The notes below the pieces were generated by a model. It saw nothing but the letters and a program-made list of their open reading frames with translations. It had not been told where the DNA came from and searched no databases. Of a stretch of 64,000 bases of DNA, positions 12,073-64,000 are shown piece after piece (position 1 is the stretch's first letter; every line of letters begins with the position of its first letter). Source of the stretch: Baylisascaris procyonis (taxonomy: Eukaryota > Nematoda > Chromadorea > Rhabditida > Ascarididae). Both the position numbers and the translations under genes were made by a program. The stretch is from the NCBI GenBank assembly GCA_037389465.1, contig JAZARR010000175.1:62001-126000 (forward strand). The letters are read 5' to 3'.

Positions 12073-20001
<7,929 letters not shown>

Positions 20002-28300: not shown

Positions 28301-31300
28301 AGCGGATGAGGTAATCGATGGAAAGCGAGAAGAGAAAGGAAAGCGAGATTAGATTATTGAGGGACGATGACGTCATGAATTAAGTCGCTAATGAGAAGCA
28401 GAAGCTGAATTGTTATCGAATCTATACCGACCATATGGTAATTATTGATTTTCCGATTATCATAGATGATGTCTGCAGTGTTCATGTGGATTTTAAGAGT
28501 ATCCTTCGTTTATTGTATTGATTTTTAATGAAATTAAATGATTCATTCGAGCTTTAGCTATTTTAATAGTCTCAAATTTTGATAGAAAGATATATAAATG
28601 CGAATTTATTAAGGCGACTTTCGAGAAATTGGAGAACGAATTACGCGAAGTGAATCAAAATGAAGAAATGTTGAAGAAAAATTTCTCGGAATTGACCGAA
28701 TTGAAACATATTTTACGCAAAACACAGCAATTCTTTGAAGAGGTTTGCTTTCATTTTTATGTGCATATTTTGTTATTGATGAGGCAATATTTTAGACTTT
28801 TTTTGGTTTAAAATGTTTAATCTTTACCGTTTAAATTTTTTATGGGATGATTTTTTTAGCTGAATAGAAATAGTTGACGAGCGGTTGTATGCAACGATCA
28901 AAAGTTTTTTTGGGAAATTTTCATTTTTTTAGGTCGAATTTTTATCTTTTAAAAAATGGTAATTATAAAAGAGTAATAACTGTTGCCATCTAATTTGAGC
29001 TTTGGTGTTTTTTAACGTTATAATGAATTAAGATCAAATCGAATATTTCAAGTTGATGGCCTTTCATCTAATAATGTTTGTCTTGTTTCGCATGATAAGT
29101 GTCGATGAATCTTAAAGGAAATCGAAATCAGAGAGCAAATAAAATTACAGAGCAATAGGGGGGGGGGATGAATATTGGCATTCCTTTATACAGCACCTTT
29201 CTATTTGTTTTTGTTCAAATTTGTGTTTGGTTGTAAGGCTGTTAGCTAGGAATAGGAGAAAACGACCCTCTATCCATTCACTCGATAATTAATGAATCTA
29301 GCAGAAAAGGTTCTATGAATTTTTGGGTGCGATCAAATTTCTTCATCTTCAATTAACTTCAAATGATTAAATATGCACCTTTTTATGAGATGGCTATTCA
29401 CTCATCCCGCCTCCTCCCTCCCACCCTCCGTACAGATGAAAGTGTAAGAGTCAACTCCTAGGATGAGTCTTGGATGCATATATTGAATAAATATTTCGGA
29501 TGCAGTACTAACATTGAAAATTCATGAATTTACTTTTCTACAATAATGGAAGCAAAGTGAAACATGGGGAGTGGTCTAAAGGGGGAGGGAGAGGGGGTAT
29601 GTAGTTCCGAGAAAGCAAGTTTATAAATTGTTGCTTCCTAGCGATGTTAGCTTGCATGGAAATTGGCGCACTTTCTTTTGTGCAATTGCACGTTTAACCT
29701 ATGTTGATATGTTAACAGCATCCCTTCATTTAATCTGCTTCTTTGCTGTGCATGGCATGCTATTTCCCAGTGATTTTTGCTATTCTTTTATGTTTTTCTA
29801 AACTATTTTTGATTTCGACGTTTTCTTTCTTTCCACTATTTTCGATGTCTTTATTTTCATTTCTTCTTTTCTATCTCTTCGCGGATCTTAGCTATTTAGC
29901 GAATTCGATTCATCACCTATATGGCCAGATGGATTGTTTGAAGAGTTCACCACTTCCGATTGTTTTCTCGACTGATTGCATTTAATTTTTTCAGTTTCTA
30001 TATAATTGTTTATAGTTTTTTTTTTCAATAAGGTTTTTATGGGCGCCAACTTAAATAATTTTATTTTCAAACATTTTGTTAGAACTTTTTGAAATATATT
30101 ATCAAATTCCGTTCGTCCAATTTTCCAGTTTTTTCAAAATTTTTTTTTCAGAAATTTTCATCAAACTATAGATTGTAATGAGTATAGAGTCTAACTTTGA
30201 GAGCATTATTTGAATAGGCATGATTTTTTGCTTTCGCATTTGTTCGTTAATGAAAATCGTATAATGGTTGATGTGTTATGGCTTTCTTTCATTTGTGCTT
30301 GAATAGCAATTGTTGTTTGAAATCGGGAACGATATTCGGCTCAAATGCGGCAAACAATTAATACGAAATTTGTATTTATGTCAGTGATAAAAGCACCGCA
30401 CTGTTTTGTTCAGTATATTCAGTAGGTTTATCGAGTCTTATTATCAAGCCCTCTCTCTCTCCCTATTTCTGTTTACTCTCTTTGAACGCGAAATAGTGTT
30501 AATTGATTGTTGCATTAGATTCTTGAGCCTTGGAAAACAGCATTCCTTTTGGCTGCATGATCTTAGGATTGCATGCAAAATCATCAAGTATGAGAAAAGA
30601 GCTTTCAAAATTTTTTTTCTTTGATAGTGACTATAAAATGTATTTTTGCAACGATTCGGCTTTCATGACTGATCTCATATATCCACACGTGGAATCAGTG
30701 AGATATTTGTAGCTTTGTAGAATCTTGCATTCACCTTCTTGTTAAGGTGTGGGATTCTGATGTTTAGTCCTTAACAGTCTTCCAGGTGAGATTTGTTAGA
30801 AACCAATTCCATGGTTTTGTTTAGAATATTTTGAATACATTAGTTTACTGAATGAGCAGGACCATTGTTACATAGGGTGGCATATAGAATGCGTGGCATT
30901 TGGGTCCTCTCACTTCCATGATCCTTCAATGCGCACTGCACACTGACATTTGAGCTTTTGGAGTCTTTTAATTTGAGTGCAATGCGGAGGTTATTCAAGA
31001 ATATGAGGAGCTGCTGAGATAAAAAATGACTATTTTTAGAAATGTTTTTCTGGTTTTTCTTGATTTAGTAAAGGAGTTTATAGAGTGTTTAGTTGTAAGC
31101 TTCTATAATTAGGATAACTTCAATGGTAAATATTCTACTAAGAGAGGAGAATGAGGGCTTCTTTTATCTCAAATAAGCATTTGTAGCAGCATTCCTTTAA
31201 TCTTCCGCTCGGTAGTATGCTAATCATACTTCTTTGTTCAGTTAGGTACAAGAAGGCTGCAATTATTTCACATTAAAGCAAGAGAGTATTATGTAACCAA

Positions 31301-34300
31301 TTGATGCCTGCGTGAAATATAAATACTTTTGTTCACTGATGGACTACTGCTGTGTGGTGATGTGCATGTTTAGTATATTTATAGCTGTAGTTGTTGTGGT
31401 TGTTGTTTTTGTTGTGGTATGTCGGCTGGATGATCTCTAGGTGGAGCACGACAGGTGGCTTCCGATGTATAGGGCATCCACCACTCGACGAGGCTCACTT
31501 CCTGAGGATCAGCAAAGCTTGCTGGGTGATTCTTCAACGGGCGGTTGGACAGGTGCACTCCGATTTGGGTAAGTGATCGTCATCATGAACATCCTGTATG
31601 ACACTTTTTATCGTTTTCTTGTGTTTCGGTTACTTGTTTGCTCTTGTAGTGATTTGCTAGTGTTTTTTATATTGGTGGTCTTTTCTTGATTATTTAAAGG
31701 TTTTCATAAGTGTGGAATAGGATACGGTTGAAGCCCTTACGTCTCCATGATAGTATTCTTTGTTTGCAAATGATTGGGAATAGCATACCCGTGGAGAATC
31801 GATGAGGGGAGCTTGATGCTTCGGGAAGGCATGGATCAGATTTCGACGTCAACGCAATCGTAGTATGAAATCGAGTAACGAAACCAGTATTTTGAATAAC
31901 TGAGGGTAATAACTAACTGAGACAACAAAAAAAAAAAAAAATTATGGGTTACGCTAAAAGATTGCCTCAGAATCTTTTCTTTCTTTAGGAATCCAATTGT
32001 TTCAAATTTTAAGGAAGGTAAGTAATTGTTCGGAAATAGATCTGCATTTGAGGGATAGAGAAAAGAAGCGTTCGAATTTCTGCTGCTCTCATTCTTGCTT
32101 TACTAGCATTGTTGAATATTTAAGCGTTGATAAAGCCAAAAGTAGGTAATTGCATTCTAACACTACGGCACTTATTAAATACAGTATGGGTGCAAGTAGG
32201 TAGTCTGAATGGAGAATTCAGGTGAACTTGTAGTACTGTAATTATTCCTATTTTAAATAGTGTTGAAGGGGGGGGGAGTTAATGTATACTGCGGTGAAAG
32301 TTGAAAAGATTTGTGAATGTGCAATTGTTGCGAGAAATAAAAGTATCACATTCGTGATTTGTACCTCTAGTCATACGTTGTTGAACAACAAAAACTACTG
32401 TGGTAAAATAGAGTAATATAATTTAAATAACCCACTTTGTGTTATACTGTATTCGGTGATGAGAACGACATTACCGTAGTAATTCATTATTAACTATTTT
32501 GATACAGTAGGCCGATCATTTTTAGAATATCAAAAGACATTTGGAATTACTTTTTTCATACGTTTTGGCATTGCCTTTTACTCGTACGGATTGGTTTTTC
32601 ATGAAGCTTTAAATATATATCATTCTTCGAAACTGTCGACGGCGTTTATAATTGTCTCTACCCTTTATTATTACATTATATTTATTTTTATTATATCAGC
32701 TTTTTATTCCTTCAAAACTTTACAAATACCGCCTTTCTGCTTTCGTAACAAGACCTGGAAGATTGCTCTTTTCAACTTTTTCTTTTTTAAATAATACATT
32801 CAATTCAAATTAGGTTAGTATTAATTATCCTTTTATTTATGTTATCTGATATACTCAAATATTTAATTTTCATGTCGTATATATAACTTCATAAACATCT
32901 ATATAACTGTACAAATGATATAGTGTTGCGGTACGTTGTTTTAAGCTTTACGTTGTAATAAGTGTTTATCTTGATTTACTTCCGCCCCTCGAAAACAGAA
33001 ATCGCCAAAATGTAGGAAGGAGTTTAATATTGAATCGTCGATACTCCTATGTGTACTTACTTGACTCTTAGCTGTTGTTATTTATAGGGTAGATTGGTGC
33101 AAAATTTTTGTTATATTATTAATTCTTTCTATTTATGCAGAACTTATTCATATATCATTGATTTCATCGCTCAAAATGCTTCTCATATCTGTTTTTTTTA
33201 ATATCTTTTAACCCGTCACCTCCCTAGCATCGTTCCTCTTATCCTCAATATTAATACTATTTACCTATTTTCTTGCCTTCTGCATTTGACACTTTTGAAG
33301 TTATACCTTTTTAGATAACTATATCTATAAAGGTTAATTAATAGTCACCTAAAAAGAGTGCATGAATCATATATGCTGAAGAAGTAAGTAATGGGCGAGT
33401 AATTCATTTCTTCAGTTTATTTGAATTCTTATTTTTATTTCATAGTGTTTACTGTGTGCAATAATCCCCCACCCCCCACCCGTTTCCCCCTTCCCCTATT
33501 GCCACGAATTTCAATCAAGTATAGTTGACTAGATGAACCATCATTGCTACTTATGCACTAAAAAATAACGCTCATTTTTCCCGCTTAGTCGTTGATAGTC
33601 GGTGTTTTTTTTTTTCTTTTTGTAATGCTATTGAGTGTTTACTGTTATTGCTGCATGCGTTATGCTCTTCTTTTTTTGCTCACTTTTTTTTGCACGCTAT
33701 CGTAACGTCAATTCTTAAATGTTTTGTTATAACAGTGCTTTCTACGGCTAATAATTACCGTAACGAATTTAATAAAAGTCCCAATAAACTTTTGGAGTTT
33801 CATTTTCTTTCTAGGTGGCTTATCGTTAAGAGGGAAAGTCGTTTTTTTTTTGAGATTTTACAATTCACTCATATATGAGAAGGCAGTCCAATAAATGCGT
33901 TTGGTTTTTTAAACTTTTTTTTCGGTGTTTTTGGGTGTAAGCATTTCCTGATATGGATTTTATTTTTTGTTGACCATAAATAATTGTGATATTAAGGTTC
34001 GTGGGGGGGGGGGGTATAGCGGATAGCATTATACGTTGTCTTCCTCATAGAATCGTTTCAACGGTGCCTCACCTCCCTGCAGTTGAGAATGGGATACTTG
34101 CTAAGGTGTGGATACAGAATATGCAAAAATCACTCTATGATGTATGCGAAAAGCTGTCATAAACTGTTACTGAATGAAAACTAGTTCTCAAATGTAAAAG
34201 ACTTTTTCCCGGAATTTTTTATTATACTTTTTAGAAAAATAGGATGTCTCGTTTCAAGTAAAGAAGGAACGTATGCTGCACTTCAAAAAAAAGGAGAAAA

Positions 34301-36972
34301 TTCTGAAAAAAAGGAGCCACAAATTTATATTTTTTGAATGTGAGTTTCGCTTCTAGGAATATCTTTGTTCAGCTTAGTTGGCCATGAGTGGTAATGTTTT
34401 TGGAGAAAGTAAGAGGATATAAATATAAGAATGGGGAGCATAATCGGCATTATTTTTTCCATTATGGTAAAATCGAAGTAAATAAATTGAGAGGTTGAAT
34501 CTCAGATAATGAACAATGAAATCATATTGCAAAGATTTTTTTTTTTTGAATTGGCGACTAATCTTTTCACTCTTTCTCTCTACTCATCCCCAAAATCAGC
34601 GTTCAGCTGGAAGAAGTTTCGTTTCCTAAGAGAGGAGGGGGTTGGTGAACTGTGTGTATGTGCATACAGGCAAGTTGTTATGGTAGGCGGGACCGGAGTC
34701 GATCGTACCTCCGAGCGGTGTTTCACAGCCCAGTGGAGGAGGCTTGCCGGAGCAGATCGTACTTCAGGAAACCGAAGGAATGGGCATCGAGCTTACCGGA
34801 GCGCCTACCGCTTCAATGTTTGCCAATTTTGGGTAGGTTGTAACGCCGACTACTAAGTGTCGTATCGTGCAACTAGGTACCAATTTCTGCTTAGATGTTC
34901 AGCTATGCAATAAGAGATCATTGTGCAATGTGCAATGATCTATTTTCGGGTGACTTCGAAAGTGCGTTTGCATATTTGTGTATATCAGTGCTTGGAGCTG
35001 GCTATGCTTGCATCCAAATAAAAAGATATTCCTTGCACTGAAGCTCGAACTTGTGCTTGTTGCACCTAAACAGGAAGATATTTTTTATGTGGAAGCTCGA
35101 ACCCGAACTTGAAGTTTTGTCTTCATGTGATCAACAAACGATTCTTTTCTGAAATATGCAATAACTGCTACTCGAACATATTGAATATGTTTAGCATGAG
35201 TTAACTGTTTTTTATGGAAGCAGCAACTGGTGTATAGGAAATACGATGTATTTATCCCAGGGTTTCGATTTATAATTGTTAATGCGGAAGGGATTATGAT
35301 TGAATACAGTGCTTCCGTTCAACTTCGTTTGGTCTTGAATGTGCAGCTGTGGCGATGATGGGAGTGGATTTAATATTCTTTATGCAGAATGGGGAAGTAA
35401 TTAATGGAGATTTGGATTTTTCTATTGTACAAATACGTAATACTGGTTGGGAATTTTCCATTTTGCAACTTTATCGGTCATTTATGGCTGTTATATAGAG
35501 AGTATTAAAGTTAATAGAGAGGAGATTAGCACATCGAAGATTTTTGAGAAATTGTCAATGTAAACCTGCATATTATAGGAGAATTTATTCTTTGGAGCCA
35601 CCCGGATGAAGTGGTAAAACTGTGAGCATCATTGAGGAATCATATTGGAATACAGTTCTTGTTTGTAGTTCTTTGCAGAGTTTTATATTTTAATTGCAGT
35701 GAAACTTTTTACAAGCGCTCACTTAGATCGCTACTCCTTTCCTTTTCCTCCATCCTTGCCTCATTTCATCCCCTTTCCTATGCCTAGTAAGAATGAGATG
35801 AAGAATCCTTCGATTCTTTATGTAGATTTTTTATTGCACTTATAACCACATTGGATTCTTTATTGACCAGTTGCTGATATATTGAGGGATTTTCTCGAAA
35901 GAATAGTTCTTGAGAGATTTCAAAAAATTTGAATTGTATCGCTGCGATGACTTTTTTTCAGTTAAATTCTAAGATTTTAAAGGCATTTTGAGATATTTAT
36001 GATTTCGTTGATTGAGACTATTTTATCTGAGATGAGAGACGTTTTCATATTGTAAGAAAAGAGGGAAATGAAGTTTTCATTGTGTTCAATGCTGATATTA
36101 TTTGAAATATGAAACAAAATGATGATTTAATTGTCGGGTGAGAAAGTGATTTAGGAATATATCAATGTATAGCATAGTTGTATATACATATGTGTGCATA
36201 ATTAAATGAGATGATCGTAGGGAAGAATCGTTGCAGTTAATAGCTGGATCGTCATTGAAAATTGATGAATTCCATTGTTTTTAGTGCTATTTTAAGGTGT
36301 GATTGCAGCATTGAGTACGAACTTAGCTCGCTATCAAATTAAAGCAGTTATTCAGAGGTTTTATTTGGATGTTATTTAGGTTTAAGTTGGATTGATGCCG
36401 TACTAGTGCTATGAACCTTAAATATGTCACTTTTTATTAGTGTTATAACACAAATTAGTCGTTTTTTATTGGTTTTATAACAGAAGTTTGTGTTTTTTAT
36501 AAGTGTTATAACACAAATTTTTCATTTTTAAGCTAATCTTATCCGATTCGCAGATGGAGATTCGTTGTTGCGTTTGCATGCTACGCGTCATCTCTATGTT
36601 TGTTTAATTATCGCTGCTATATGATCGATTATTTTGACGTTTTTCTTTATCACTAATCGGCTAACAACTAGGCTGCCACCTATCTGTATGTGGGATTGGT
36701 TTGCCGCATACGGAATGTCACAATCTAACCAGCAGTCATTCCGTATGCACGAACTTTTTTCGTTTTATTTAATACTTGCTGGGAAAAGTTACCACCGTTA
36801 TGTGGATGAGCGATAAAATGTAAACTTTTTGTTGTAAAGGGCTGTATTCAAAAAATATTCCTTCTTTGTTGTACAATAACGGCTAACTGTCGGGTGGGTA
36901 GGAGACATGGAGATCGGGTAGATTTAAAAGTATTATTGTTTAAGTAAAACTTTGAGATGTTTATTTTTTCAG

Positions 36973-37038
<66 letters not shown>

Positions 37039-40000
37039 TGTTGGCAGCGACCCACATTTGTTTTTGAATGTTTTAGTGAAGGGATTTATAAGAACTTCGG
37101 AAGTGCAGTTTTCGTCTAATGCTGTTTTAGCCGATTGAAATGCTTTTCAATTATATTCTCTCTTGTGGCTTGAAATGGAATTTCTTTTCAGTATTTTTGG
37201 TATAGATATAGATGATGCTGATCTATGTGATTGTAGTTCATAAAAGAGGGACGTATAAAGGAAACGCAAAAGTAGTCTTAATTAGAATGGTAATTTAAAT
37301 CACAGAGGATGCGGTTTTTTTGCTCCAGGAAGTATAATATTATCATTTTTCGGTGGAGAATGCGAAGAGATGATTGCATTTTAACCTCCCGATGATAATT
37401 TTTAATGGTTTATGCGGTGCGTAAAATATCATCCGAAACTGTTATATATCTTTTTTAAAATGCATGGATAATAAAAATATTGGTGTGTAGCATGGCGAGG
37501 AGCAAGCGCTTGATTCACTAAGTCATTTGGAGCTCGATGGTTTTGGGGAGAGACTTAGCGAGGAGGATGTTGGACGGTTGGTACGACGCATCGACACTGA
37601 GGATGCGCATCAGCTAAAACAACAACTCAAGTAGATTCAGCACTTTTCATTGTTTTTCTGCATTAATTGAAGATGTGCCTAACATTTCTTATCTCGAAAG
37701 TTGCACAATTTTTTAAAGAGGCTGAAAGAGAAAACACAAAGTTTGTTGCTCTAAAAAAATACTTATTCATTAATTAAACGTGCAATCTGCAAGACTCACT
37801 CTTCCCTACCTCGTCTTAAAACTATAGGGGTGGAGGAGGGAGGCAGGTGGGTGATGAGGGTTGGATTAGATTTTCAGTAATAACTGAGTAGAATGTTTAT
37901 ATGCGTTCGATTCAAATCTTTTGGATGGGTCTGTGAATATCATAAAATTTGGATTAATATTTTTTCGGTACATAAAAAATGAGGATGGAGGAAAGACAGG
38001 AAGGAAGAAAAGAAAGAGCAGCTGAATCCGTAGTGAGGGATTTTGACTTTTTTTGCCTTCAGGAAAATAGAGTCATAACGAATTGCACGTTACTTTCGTG
38101 TTGGAATAAATGAAGAAAATCTTAACTTGCAAGTGGCACGTCCCCAACTGTGTATTTATAGTTGTCCTTTTTTTATATTTTTGAGTTGAAAATGTGAAGA
38201 TGAGTTTCCTTTTCGTTTGATCTTTGCTTGATCCGTAGGGAAAAAAGTTTCAAGAGAGATTATCTTTTTGTAATTTCTTAGCAGTAATGACTCTTCATAA
38301 CAGTTTCTGTCATCTTCTCAGCAGGAAATAATCTAATATATACTAAAATTGAATGACAGAGTTCCACTGATCTCGCGATTTCTTTTTGGGAGTCGCTATT
38401 TCGATGATCTTAGTTTTATTGATTATACATGAATTCTATTAGTTTCATTCGATTTGCCTCTATTCAGTTGAGTCATACATTTTTTTTTCTCTTTTCTAGC
38501 TGAAACAGAAAAAAAATCAAAGCATCGCCTGAGGGAAGCACCGATTGGCAAGTTGGCTATGAAGCTTTCATGTAATAGTGGTGTGAGATGTTGAAAGACG
38601 CCTCGCAATGTAAATCTTTTTATGGTATTGAAAAAAGAGAAACGCTACACGAGAGATTCTATTCATTGCATTGAAAATAATGCAATGAAATGCCATCGAT
38701 GTAAATTGCTAAATGAAAATACGGTGATCAACGGTGCCGATCGGTATTTTCGTCGTTGTATCGCTGTCAATGTTTCAGTAATTTAGACATATAGTTATTA
38801 TGTGGTAAGCGAACTTCAATTGCTTCTCAATAGTCATTCAGTATCTTTCAGAATTAGATTATGGTTTAAGAGTTTGACTTTCAACAAATTATCTATGTTT
38901 ACTTTCCTCCTTTCCCATTACCTTCCAAATAGCGGACGAATTCAAGAGCTGAGTTCGGGAACTTCTTAGTTTTGTACACCGTCTACTTTGAAATTTTGCT
39001 CCTTTATTATTTTTTCCAGCTTACCGCCTAGTGTTTTCTTCACTTCTGGCCCTCTTCTCGGAGGTGTAGTCATGCCTACGTCAAACATTGCACATCCCAG
39101 AGTTTTTTTTTATTGTGGCGTACTTCTGTATATTGAAAATATTCCATGCTAATTTTCAGTTTTTCAGTGCTGTTGCTTTTTGATGTAAAAATTTTCTGAC
39201 AAACGTTGCAGCAGATTTTTATCTTATTCTGTTATATTTTGGGATTGGCTATTGTTCAATGTGTGAGTGATGTACTCTAAAAGCTTTTGTGATCATAACG
39301 ACTATTTATAACATTGGTCTTGTTTAATCATCAAATAATTTTTAAGTTAAATTTACCAGAATTAAAAAGAAAAGAAACGATGATGGATGAGCAAATGCAA
39401 TTTTTTTGTGCGCAAACACGTTTTCCTATAGTATGATAGTAACTCCGAATTGAATCAATATAAGCGCATCGAATGGTATAAAGTTTATTCTTTGGCGAGG
39501 TTTATCCACTCTTCGGTGTGCTTGTCTTTACACGATATGGTCATTCGAAGACGATCCTACCATACCTCACAGATTCTTTCCTTTATTTGTGTATGACTAT
39601 TATTTTCCATCTTGTTAATCTTCTTTTATGGTTTTTCCATCGTTCCTCACAGGAATGTGGAAAGCGAATATTTAAGTAGAAATTTCTTCCATAGTAATTT
39701 CATTTGAGCATCTCATTTTGGTCCCAAGAAAGATGTCGTGTTCGTAATAGTGTTGTGTTCATTATTGCTTCTCTTCAAGATTTACCAAAGTATTTGAGTG
39801 CGAATAGTTGTATTCGGGTGTTGAGTGCTTGTCTGAGTCCAGCTGTTCGAAAATGGCTCCAAGCCGTTCAATTACGCGCCGAGTTAAGGAAATTGAATTG
39901 AAAACTTAAATTATCACATAATTATGATATGTTCGTTTGTTTAAGCGATGAAATTACATCAAATATGGTATGCGGAAATTTCGGTTTTGTTGAGGGAAAT

Positions 40001-46000: not shown

Positions 46001-49000
46001 CGAATAACGGATCCATCCGCACTTTCAGCTTGATGAAAGAAAATACTTGAAGGAATTGTGGTCCGACTTGTTAGTCCAAAAACCTCAAAGGCGGTGGTCC
46101 GACATCATAAACTGCTTTTAATCAATGACAACAGGAAGTGAAGATCGTCATATGAATAGGATTCTACAGTAGTGATGTCTTGTTTCGGGCTTCTTTTGAG
46201 GCCTTCTCAGACAGACGTGTACGGCAGGTGTGTCACCTGCGTCTACGGATCGTTGTCGGATGCCAGCTTTTTTTTATGTGGATATCCTGAACGTATTGCA
46301 TATAAAGCATTTCTACATTATGCTTACTTTACTGAGTCCTAAACAGGGTCGTTTAGCCAGTATCACTATATTTAAGTATTCATGATCCTTCATATGCAAA
46401 TATTGAGGGCATCACCCCAAAACTTATGCTCATGAGGAGTATTGATTGATTAGACATTGATTTATCATTTTCAGGTATTTCAACTCGCGTCTTGACGTGC
46501 TATTCACGTTCATTCCTCAGATGCTATTCCTTGGCTGCATATTCATATATCTTTGCCTCGAAATCATTTTCAAGTGGTTGCTCTTTTCGGCTGAGGTTTC
46601 ATTTCCTTCTTTCATCTTTTTTTTTTTGTAAATCTTAAGTCGCCTTTTCAAAAAGTAGTGATTGCAGCGTTTGTTAGGTGAATTTGATTATTTCTTCACA
46701 GAAAAGATCAACGGACGAGAAGGGGTACATGCGTATTCTTTGAGTGAGTGTTTAGAACTTTGTGTGTTATTTCCAGAGCGGCACCGTTCTTGGCTATAAG
46801 TACCCATCGTCGAATTGTGCGCCATCACTGTTAATCGGTCTCATAAATATGTTTATGATGAAGGATCGCCCATCGGGTTTTGTCAACGAAACCACTGGGA
46901 CTGTTTATACGCAGTGCTATCTCAACCTGTGGTACCCTGGACAAGTGAGTTTCATATTTGTAATGAAATATCTCATAAATCTTGCTTCTCACATTGATAT
47001 GAATTATATGCGAGGAGTTTCCCAAAACAATTTCGAAAAACAAATAATTCCATGAGGTAAGCGCTGTTGGAAATTGAAAGATTGTTAAGTAGGGAGCGAA
47101 GGATAAGCAAGAGGGGAGTTGAATAAGCGATGGTGTTCGGAGAGTTTGTTCTTTAAAAAAAGAGGTGTTCATCAAACAGATGTCTACTCTGATGCAGGTA
47201 TTGATATTGTAGTTGACTTTGTGGATCCATCTATTTTTGTGTCCATTGGTTGTTCTTTTATTTATTCTTTCACCATTGAGCCGATGGATTCACTCATTTT
47301 AATACCCTCTTCCCTCTGCGTTCCACTGATCACATTTCCTGATTGCCTTTGATATATGTGTCCAGCCGGTGAACTTGGATTCCTTAGTGGTTTAATTGGG
47401 GTTAACCTTGTCGTTAGCTTATTTAATTGACAGTCTATCTGGTGGATATTCTAATTTTTTATTCAACGTTCACCTTGAGCCTTTTCTAATAGCCATCATG
47501 TCGGATGAATTCCTAATTAATGTGCACTGCAATGTTTTTTATTATATGCCTCTCATAAAGTTATATCAAGGAGATATCCTAGAAGATATCGACTAGATAT
47601 TATAGGAGATGCGAAAGAAAAGGAGATGAGGGGAGGGTGAGTAATTGACTGTCTGGAATATACTTTAGCGCTGGGAATCTTAACTTCTACTTATGGTTAT
47701 TGTCACGTAAAAGAATCTAGTATTTGCAGCAAGCACTGAATTGAGTGTTCAATGTATAATGTAGTCACCTATCACTTTACCTGTAAGGCTGTGGTTTTAG
47801 TCGTTCTTCGAGACTCTTTTTGTGTTGGTTGCGGCCGCGTGCATTCCGGTGATGTTGTTCGCAAAGCCGTATATGTTATGGAAGGAGCATAAGCAGACCG
47901 TTGCGGCTGGCATTGTCAACTTGGTGGGTTCCAAGGACACATAAATATATGATCACCGTCTTTGCAACCAAATCCTTGAATGAATTATTGCCTTTAATAA
48001 AATTTCGGTGAAGTGCACTGAATTAATGCACTAAGAATATTGGAATGCGAATATTTTCTAATAAAGTTTTGAAAGGTCATTCAAGAATTTGGTTAGAAGT
48101 GGCTATATATTTGTGTTGTCTGCATGCCATATAAAGGATCTGCCCGTTGTGTTTAGTGAATTGAACGGCTTTAACCCCACCTTTGCTATTCGAAAGCGTA
48201 ACGCGCCTACTGCTGAAATACCTTTTTCTGAGTTATTTTTGTATAGGAGCAAAGGCTTCTTCAGTATGCGTCGTGGTAATGAATTGGGACAAAAGGTGCG
48301 GAAGGCGCATTACGATCAAGGAGTAGTTAATTGTTGCGTGGTGTCGGGCAGTGTTGTGTCGTGTTGTTTCTGTTCCAGGGTTTCGTCGAGAACATTCTTT
48401 TGGTGGTCGCTGTGATACAAGTACCCATCATGCTTTTCGCCAAACCGACAGCTCTCTACTTGGGGCAGAGAAGATCTATTTCCGGCCATCGCATACTGCG
48501 ATCACGGGTATACGTGATCGTCATTTTTGGTGAAATGAGATGAACTATTGGATTTAGAGTCAAAGATCAAGGCGCTTATTTAGAAAGAAACTTTTCTGAT
48601 TTATTTTGCAGTACATAGATGACGAAGCAGCTGAGAATAGTCACTGGATATGCTGCGAGGTTCATGTTCCAGTCAGGGTCTCCGGCAGAAAGCAATTCCC
48701 TAATTTTTCATCGCCGACCCTTTCATTGTTACCTCTTACCGTCAGATCGGTCGAAGGGTCTCTCAACCTTTTCTTCCCATCTTGCTGTCTGTCCTCCCTC
48801 TGATACTACGCGTTTCCATCGTCGAGTTCTCGGCCAAATCATTTACCGCTTACGAAATTGCCCTGGCAGGAACTGCTTCTCTTTCCAAGAATGCGTGTTT
48901 TTATGCGGCATGAGGTCTTCATTCGGCCGAATTACCTTTCTACTGATTCTCATCTTGGCAAACCTCACACTTTCCCGTCGGGGCCATCCTCTCCCCATCA

Positions 49001-52000
49001 CTTGCGGCGTATTAGTCATAGCGGTGCAGTAGGCAAGATACGGGAGATATGTGCATGCATCATCTCACTTTTTTCAAGAAATCTTTGCCTTTAGTGGTGT
49101 TAGTTGGCCGAGAGCTGTGGTCTCATTTGAGAAGCCAGCATGGTTTATGCAACTTTGTGCATCATCCATGCTTGGGTGATATATAGGTGGGAAATCTCCC
49201 AGCCCTCTTTCCACTTTCCTTGCTTTCACATGTGCTCATAGATGCCTAATTCATTTCATTTTCTTCCTGCATCAATTTTCATCTGAGCTGATGTTTGATG
49301 GACATAGATGAATATATTCAACTGCTAAGGTTTCTGTGCTCCCCTGCCTCCTCTTTGCCCCTTCCCTGACGGACATTTTTTCCGGCGATCATGAAATCCT
49401 GCAGCGGCACTATGCCTTTTGCTTGAACCCCCCGTTTAAACGTTATGCAGTGGCCTTGTTTCCATTCATAGTGCTGAAAAATTAGAACATTATGTCTAGT
49501 AGGTCCATGCGTACAAAGGTGGTATGCTCTCTTTGTGACAGCTGAAAACATATTGCATCTTCTCTTTTTTGTAAGGAAATCCAGGGCCTTTTTTGCTCTC
49601 CTCTGCTTACTGTTCTCTCCTCTCCCTTCCTGATGATTAATTTTTAACAAATTATTCTTCGCCCGGAAAATCGAATTGCGCTTTACACGCCGCTCCTCGA
49701 TTTTGAAGTTGTTTTGAACTCATATAAGCCTAATACCTATGAAATCTCTCTCTAGCTATCATTTTGAAGTGCTATCGCTTCTTTCCTCTTCTCTCTTCTC
49801 TAATTGCTCTGAACGGATGTGAGCGATCCTTTGGTTGGATTGAACCTCGAAATGATTCCAGTTAGGGGCTTTTACGTTCTTTTCATTTTATCTGAATGAT
49901 TTTTTTTTATAATTACTGAATAAAAATCTTCTAATGCCGAATGACCCCACCTCCTGATACTCCGGTTTGAAAATATTTCATGATGTTTTTGAACTTTGCG
50001 GTTCTATCTAATCTTGTACGGTGGTGCTATTTTTATTTTGCATGCAATTTTTTGGTTGTTGTGTCGTTGCATATGAACATCATCGTGCTGCCGATATCGC
50101 ACAATGCAGCTAACAATGGGTAATTAGTCGGGTTTTGCTGTTGCAATTTCATAGCACTTAAATGTCATGAAAGTGTGCTCACGTCTCTTGTTTTTAACAA
50201 CTATTAATTTTTCAAATTTAATAATGTTTTATTCATCAGTAATGTTTTTCACAAATTTCCTCAATAAAAGGAGCACTTTCCTTTTGATAGTTACTGCTAC
50301 AGGACTGTAAATCTAATTCCCTTATTTCTTCCTGAAGTTTTAACTTCGTATTAGATGCCTCAGATTTGAAGCATTTTCATCGGATTGACATCGTTGACTT
50401 TTAAATGTTAGCCGAGTAGTAAATACAATCCTGTGTTTCACCATTTTCATAAAAAGTCTGGATGTTTGAAAAATATTTCTATTTGAAAATATATTTTGGA
50501 TTCAATAATCTTTTCCCACTCTCACCATCCATCTGCCTAGTAAAGCTATCGAATGGAGCTTTATGATCGCTATATAAAGCTTTTGTTTGTGGTATGCAAT
50601 AGATGAGTTGATTTGTAGAGTGTACGTGCTGATGTGAATGGTGATGATAGTGATGCACATGTTATACAGACAGATGCAGCACGAGCTGCAAAGGCATCTG
50701 GAGCGACGCATGGAGATGGCCCTGTACGTTTGTTTTTATTATTTATTTCATTCGATCATCTTACTTTTGTTGAGTATTATAAGAAGCATTGGTTGTTCCT
50801 TGCTTTACTGATGACGCTTTTATCTTGCTCTTTGTAATGTTATATGAAGGTATTTTAGTGGTATTTGTCTTGCAACATTACTGCAATAGAAGAGGGAACC
50901 TATTAAAGTGTTACTGTAGTTGTTGATTCTGTGGAAGTGAATCAAGTATTAGCGTTACGAGGGGATTTTTTAAGCAAACCTGAGAAGTAGTGCGGCAAAA
51001 GATTAGAAAAGGAAGGAGGAAGTTGCTGAGTTTCGAAAAAATCAGAAAAAGTTGTTTGAATGCCTCATAGAATTTTAAGAAATTCTCTTAAATGTAATAG
51101 AATTCTTCCTTAAAAAAATATGACAAGTAGGACTCAGAGGAGGGCAGCCGATAAGAGGGAGTAGGGTAAAGGATGGATGGGGAGGGAGTAATGTTGCCTC
51201 CCACCCTCAAAAGAAGTCAGGATATACCAGCTGGCGGTAGATGCATAATTCTTTCAGCGCATTAATGCGATCTGTTTAACACATTCTCATTGGATAAATG
51301 CAGTTAATGCATTATGCAAACGTTTCAGTTTGATCTGGCAGACATAATGGTCTATCAAGCAATCCATACGATTGAGTTCGCATTGGGATGCATATCCCAT
51401 ACGGCCTCATATTTGCGTCTCTGGGCTCTATCACTTGCTCATGCACGTATGTTCCCTTGTTTCTCTTTTGCTGAGAGTGGCTTCTTACTTTAATCTGTGT
51501 GTGGCATTTGTCTTGTACGATTGTAGATTCCAAAAAACACAACAGTAGGTGTTGTCTAGAAACTGGTTCGATATTTATAATGTCCAGATGCATATTAAGC
51601 AGGATGTGGGATGGAGTAGGGGTTGGGAAGGGGGAGGGGGGCAAGGAGAGGTTCTGCGGTTCATATAAACTGTAATTGAACCTGCATTCATAGACGTGGT
51701 CGGTCTCGCAGGGAAATTCGCGAGTTTGATAAGAGAATGACGTATACAGTTAATATCTCAGCGACATCTTATCGTCAATTCTTCTGTCGAAGAAAATACT
51801 CGAATAGTAGTTCTTTTTTCGCTGCGAGGTCTTAACAGCGATTGTGATGACTTGATGTCCTCCACTGTCGGCCATCATTATTGATCACATTCTTCATTAG
51901 GAGGTGCTGATGGAGAGCTAACCCAAAAAAAGATAAGGTTTTTAAATACTTTAAGAATACGAATAAATGTAATATTTGATTGATGGATGGACATCAGCCA

Positions 52001-60496: not shown

Positions 60497-64000
<3,504 letters not shown>

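Follow-up and report, generated by a model that had tools for sequence, protein, structure and literature searches.

The DNA considered here is a window of 64 kb from the nematode Baylisascaris procyonis, which carries on its + strand a gene for subunit a of the V-ATPase, the orthologue of unc-32 of Caenorhabditis elegans, in which two neighboring exons, 7a and 7b, are alternative to each other and most likely mutually exclusive. We consider it probable that the choice between them is governed by the order of splicing, under the control of RNA-binding proteins of the CELF and RBFOX families. What would be exchanged in the subunit is a single membrane helix together with the beginning of the cytosolic loop behind it. 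Unless a contig is named, all positions given below refer to the + strand of the window.

The gene is complete, occupying positions 25321-53097, its product belongs to the V0 sector, and the model of 21 exons that includes 4x, 7a and 7b is open throughout, with a single stop at its end. The best database protein, Ascaris suum F1KV19, is identical to the 4x/7b isoform at 866 of 879 residues, and Parascaris univalens P0005 is identical to the 4x/7a isoform at 856 of 877 residues. Solved mammalian a1 chains align to the window protein over nearly its full length, and the Pfam domain V_ATPase_I was found on the A. suum relative P0003. On sequence grounds, the gene is thus the unc-32 orthologue of an ascaridid nematode near Ascaris. 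The assembly (272.8 Mb in 293 contigs) holds two further subunit-a genes, on contigs C157 and C169, each with one exon-7 equivalent and no second copy in the 20 kb examined of each.

Around the pair, the last piece of exon 6, as delimited in C. elegans (46777-46944), ends with the residues WYPGQ in phase 0 (border CAA/gtgagt) and is followed by intron 6 (46945-47800, 856 nt). Exon 7a (47801-47923; 123 nt, 41 codons; ttttag/TCG...TTG/gtgggt) encodes a helix of the type read below as ancestral, with Cys before Pro, while exon 7b (48379-48507; 129 nt, 43 codons; ttccag/GGT...CGG/gtatac) encodes the derived type, with Gln before Pro. Intron 7a between them covers 47924-48378 (455 nt), and intron 7b, with TGCATG at 49052 and 50039, runs from 48508 to 50618 (2111 nt) up to exon 8 (50619-50723; border gtag/AGT), which begins SVRADV in phase 0. 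The original prediction had placed two exons of 41 and 43 codons, both phase 0 to 0, between WYPGQ and SVRADV, and its coordinates prove exact to the base, with the flanking borders at 46944 and 50619 and phase 0 at all four borders of the set. Depending on the exon-7 choice, the isoforms have 877 (7a), 879 (7b), 920 (both) or 836 (neither) residues, all in frame; these lengths were computed with a start of exon 4x at 31447 and would all be longer by two codons with a start at 31441. The further argument of the prediction, that nothing in the frame prevents double inclusion and that exclusivity therefore depends on regulation, holds insofar as every choice keeps the frame and regulation is the most likely cause, but the frame is not the sole possible constraint, the number of membrane passes being another. 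With both helices or neither, this number would shift by one ahead of the last helices, and the product of a double inclusion or a double skip would presumably be non-functional.

That 7a and 7b share a helix but differ in the following loop, as had also been claimed, is borne out by the comparison of their peptides. Each encodes one helix and the start of the following loop, and their alignment scores 61, against a mean of -4.0 and a maximum of 32.5 for 2000 shuffles; the two peptides were also matched by tblastn within the region (E 9e-7). Of the first 24 residues, 11 are identical, and over the whole alignment 12 of 41, the loops diverging after KP. With a DNA identity of 58% across the first 69 nt, the duplication is not a recent one. 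No third exon-7 copy was found in 46945-50618, and each exon peptide gave a single match in the assembly (E <= 0.001, 273 Mb; 3 and 4 candidates scored). An AlphaFold model of A. suum P0003 (mean pLDDT 55.3, pTM 0.35, TM-score of about 0.27, by the query, to the best solved V-ATPase chains) is unusable as a fold; in this low-confidence model the 7b segment forms one helix, residues 672-713, nearly coextensive with the exon, along which pLDDT runs in blocks of 82, 84, 78 and then 62. Hydropathy at one threshold gave five segments in the normal isoforms and was used for the exon-7 helix only, eight hydrophobic segments being expected for subunit a.

The comparison with C. elegans supports the reading of the pair as the ascaridid counterpart of unc-32 7a/7b, that is, as a known kind of switch in a new species. 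The likeness includes the gene, the place between exons 6 and 8, the order of the exons, the swap of a helix and the intron motifs, which are CELF-type sites after 7a and UGCAUG after 7b (PMC3585155). By sequence, the identification that the original prediction had proposed is clear for 7a and weaker for 7b. Window 7a is identical to C. elegans 7a at 27 of 41 residues and to C. elegans 7b at 14. The margin is thinner for the first 24 residues of window 7b (15 identities to C. elegans 7b versus 12 to 7a), and over the whole exon there are 19 of 43 and 18 of 41 identities, respectively, with equal scores of 74.5. The assignment of window 7b is carried by the Gln that replaces Cys and by its place in the tree among the 7b rows.

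In C. elegans, 7b is chosen in most tissues and 7a in neurons, the first junction spliced is either 6/7b or 7a/8, UNC-75 binds UUGUUGUGUUGU in intron 7a, and UGCAUG in intron 7b is a binding site of RBFOX proteins; transcripts with both 7a and 7b, or with neither, were not detected (PMC3585155). Tissue data place unc-32 as the strongest tissue-specific mutually exclusive event of that species, with the upstream exon in neurons (PMC12084633). Exclusivity in the window gene, which we regard as most likely, rests on its orthology with this case. Our literature searches brought up no report of a 7a/7b pair in ascaridids, nor of unc-32 splicing in Ascaris.

The splice sites of the window gene suggest how such an order could arise. 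Scored with a matrix built from the gene's 17 constitutive sites, a small training set used with leave-one-out, the acceptor of 7b reaches 11.6 bits (second of 22) and that of 7a 3.4 bits (15th of 22), while the donor of 7a reaches 6.7 bits (third of 22) and that of 7b 3.6 bits (16th of 22). With strengths crossed in this manner, exon 6 is expected to favor 7b, and exon 8 to favor 7a, and each of these first steps would remove the rival exon. The risky junction is that of the 7a donor with the 7b acceptor, both of which are good. In the model that we favor, exclusivity would follow from the order in which the junctions are spliced. Where neuronal factors are absent, exon 6 would join the strong acceptor of 7b, and 7a, with its weak acceptor, would be lost. 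In neurons, an UNC-75-type CELF protein would bind a GU-rich tract and block the 7b acceptor, and CELF together with RBFOX at composite sites would favor the joining of exon 8 to 7a, the exon with the better donor, which would lead to the loss of 7b. Joining of 7a to 7b would be blocked in neurons by CELF at the 7b acceptor and avoided elsewhere by the non-recognition of 7a. The binding of the factors, the tissue bias and the exclusivity are the parts of this model that we infer.

Candidate sites for both families surround the pair. A GU-rich tract, a candidate CELF site (48331-48367), abuts the 7b acceptor. One composite candidate lies in intron 7a (48108-48126), where an UNC-75-like 12-mer at 48108 stands next to TGCATG at 48121, and another in intron 7b (50039-50067), with TGCATG at 50039 and a 12-mer with one mismatch at 50056. 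Intron 7a holds four 12-mers within two mismatches of UUGUUGUGUUGU, at 48108, 48331, 48351 and 48356 (the last two overlapping), where shuffles of the intron give 0.18 on average and none of 2000 reaches four; the entire 64 kb has 13 such 12-mers on the + strand and 16 on the - strand, none of the latter in introns 7a or 7b. The 12-mer in intron 7b is the only one there, and a match this good has p 0.0155, while intron 6 has neither a 12-mer within two mismatches nor TGCATG. TGCATG occurs within 20 nt of a 12-mer twice in 64 kb, both strands counted, once each in introns 7a and 7b, and a composite within 30 nt arises in 0.4% (intron 7a) and 1.05% (intron 7b) of shuffles. The idea of composite sites was formed after the sites had been seen, and it is offered as a lead.

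A further comparison counted UNC-75 cores within the 60 nt that lead up to each of the 22 acceptors, using TGTTG and TTGTG, which are among the cores named for this protein, as is UUGU (PMC12005262), together with GTTGT, which is our own addition. Exon 4x has 10 such cores and exon 7b six, and the other 20 acceptors, including all 17 constitutive ones, have zero or one. At least six cores are found in 0.2% of all 60-nt segments on either strand, and the chance of two or more such acceptors among 22 is p 0.0009. UNC-75 motifs near splice sites repress zoo-1 exon 9 in neurons, although that case concerns one skipped exon and not a pair (PMC12005262). As for the proteins themselves, sequence searches located two CELF loci, on contigs C33 (90% identity to the CELF RRM3 query in 50 residues) and C186 (64% over 53), and both pieces have solved CELF chains among their best matches. 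Two RBFOX loci, C61:98223-98348 and C59:4207935-4208060, each match at 81% over 42 residues with the same match pattern, and are perhaps two genes or two haplotypes; locus L012 reads as an RBFOX RRM. Judged by these matches, CELF and RBFOX genes are present in the assembly.

Several observations weigh against the ordered-splicing model. The exact UUGUUGUGUUGU of C. elegans is absent from introns 7a and 7b, intron 7b has no more 12-mers within two mismatches than chance would give (p 0.27), and the TGCATG counts do not exceed chance either (p 0.22 in intron 7a, 0.25 in intron 7b). Similar words also occur elsewhere: a constitutive intron has a 12-mer with one mismatch (42557), exon 7a itself has one within two mismatches (47817), and the heptamer TGTTGTG is found once each in introns 7a and 7b out of 15 occurrences on the + strand. 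The CELF loci are assigned at the level of the family. The 7a donor of the window is not weak, whereas the sites of C. elegans 7a are described as weak (PMC3585155). Other differences between the window and C. elegans unc-32 are UGCAUG in intron 7a too, a GU tract that abuts the 7b acceptor, long introns and a hairpin in intron 7a (PMC3585155).

The only other GU tract among the 22 acceptors (31387-31422) precedes the acceptor of exon 4x, which belongs to a second cluster with three collinear counterparts of C. elegans exons 4a/4b/4c (PMC3585155). Exon 4x (31441-31568, start corrected from A. suum and Parascaris proteins) is assigned to the 4a type by exclusion of the other two and because it matches C. 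briggsae entries, exon 4y (34687-34832) is of the 4b type, matching C. elegans isoform b (z 5.8), and exon 4z (37491-37630, end corrected from the same proteins) is of the 4c type, matching isoform c (z 3.4). The two marked acceptors are therefore those of the exons of C. elegans intestinal isoform A (4a/7b), a combination also found in A. suum F1KV19. The exon 4 cluster of C. elegans is described without (U)GCAUG (PMC3585155), whereas nine TGCATG lie in the introns before 4x, 4y and 4z of the window (28743-37490), one of them 30 nt before 4z; the antisense-type control word CATGCA occurs once in these introns. It is conceivable, but on balance unlikely, that a single neuronal switch sets both the exon 4 and the exon 7 choices, acting through the GU tracts at the 4a and 7b acceptors and RBFOX-type sites in both clusters, with the intron 7a hairpin presenting or hiding a CELF site and hindering 7a-7b joining. 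Such a code would predate the divergence of ascaridids and C. elegans, and control of exon 4 by RBFOX would be either a later gain or a loss in C. elegans. The parallel of the marked acceptors with C. elegans is not perfect, since UNC-75 of C. elegans represses the 3-4c and 4a-5 junctions and not 3-4a (PMC3585155).

The hairpin just mentioned (47935-48121) is predicted from folding against shuffles, and a role in splicing is possible. Intron 7a folds better than its shuffles (z -2.7 and -2.3 in two runs), an effect driven by this stem, which alone has z -5.24 with none of 200 shuffles as low, its boundaries having been picked after the fold was seen. Its segment ranks fourth of 580 over the gene, behind three on AT repeat, and its 3' arm contains an UNC-75-like site, so that binding and folding could compete. 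The hairpin sequence has one match in the assembly, itself, and Rfam gave no match in 46777-50723 at E <= 1. One might hold from this that exclusivity is mainly structural, the hairpin hindering 7a-7b joining and proteins just tuning the ratio, but we find this improbable, given the post hoc choice of the stem and the explanation of the C. elegans case by proteins and splicing order (PMC3585155). A variant in which inverted repeats pair the introns into competing structures was rejected: 12 pairs were found, none longer than 22 nt, and the best was the hairpin core. The causes usual in other genes (PMC3585155), namely an intron too short to splice, a U2/U12 mismatch or the decay of frame-shifted products, are largely refuted by the sequence and hardly credible here. 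Intron 7a has 455 nt and the shortest intron of the gene 181 nt, the donors are ordinary GT with no U12 branch-like motif in the last 100 nt, and no exon-7 choice shifts the frame.

Two further alternatives depend on how the helices are distributed among relatives. The homology search scored 7986 candidates and returned 6644 matches, of which the best 120 were surveyed; 101 of these have the nematode-type anchor (WYPGQ and the like). Among the anchored entries, 54 have one helix of the 7a type (Cys before Pro), 21 have one helix without that Cys, and none lacks a helix. The remaining 26, including A. lumbricoides P0006, Toxocara P0020 and entry P0071, have both in tandem, which speaks against exclusivity and, together with the open frame of all four exon choices, would suit 7a and 7b being independent cassette exons, often included both or neither. 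This is quite improbable. The tandem entries are probably fused gene models, as those checked by name appear to be genome-derived or computed, as far as names show, and C. briggsae has fused and single-helix entries alike; no anchored entry lacks both helices, and in C. elegans products with both exons or with none were not detected (PMC3585155). The idea that 7a or 7b has fallen out of use in the window species draws on the filarial entries among the matches listed, which have 7a only and no 7b helix. We regard such a loss as very improbable, because both window exons are open and have splice sites, A. suum F1KV19 carries 7b, and Parascaris P0005 and P0007 carry 7a. Three filarial entries (P0015, P0087, P0090) have odd non-helical inserts at the place of 7b, perhaps remnants of it.

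Both helix forms were found across many nematodes, while the Trichuris and Trichinella entries (P0089, P0091, P0096) have one form only, and a region search for 7b gave five entries, all ascaridid. For a tree of the exon-7 segment, rows were picked by hand (33 of 7a, 28 of 7b and 11 of outgroups), leaving out incomplete segments and near-duplicates. The residue two before the helix Pro is Cys in all 33 7a rows and in none of the 28 7b rows (Gln in 18); in the outgroup it is Cys in nine of 11 and Ser in one, the last, missed by the pattern, being Cys by eye. Because this Cys is common to 7a and the outgroups, 7a is read as the ancestral helix. The tree, which has 45 columns, an unsettled bootstrap and species labels assigned by us, places no 7a row among the 7b rows, nor the reverse, and seven of 11 outgroup rows on the 7a side; the fork between the sides is weak (40/73), and neither group is one clean clade. 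For those labels that have both forms (24), identity in the first 30 residues averages 0.68 among 7a versus 0.51 among 7b. All this, and mainly the Cys, suggests that 7a keeps the ancestral helix and that 7b is derived and more variable, although the 7b side also takes in the two rows from Trichinellida and the two paralogues found in the assembly. The distribution fits a single duplication before the split of ascaridids, tylenchids and rhabditids. An origin before the split of nematodes from arthropods was considered and is not supported: the wasp entry P0120 looks 7a-like, and a search with its exon-7 segment showed no second form among 30 entries (28 named, all insects, and two unnamed), a search that could miss one. 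Three Trichogramma isoforms differ at the place of exon 4 and, behind the helix, in a single residue. For the metabolic gene coq-2, alternative splicing with mutually exclusive exons is also described in animals, parasitic helminths among them; this gene differs in encoding an enzyme of quinone synthesis, with no helix of a proton pump being swapped (PMC7434440).

Elsewhere in the window, a piece of a thiamin pyrophosphokinase gene lies on the + strand at 61998-62234 (Pfam PF04263, E 1.2e-14), and long AT dinucleotide repeats, translated as IYIYIY, occupy 15145-15414, 36928-37116 and 62535-62804.

With this gene, the C. elegans case becomes comparative: a distantly related nematode has the same helix swap, and its candidate control sites are open to comparison and mutation. 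The tandem-helix entries matter for the modeling of the proton pump in parasites. The DNA around the pair suggests that a splicing switch of nerve cells like that of C. elegans may be used in this ascaridid as well.

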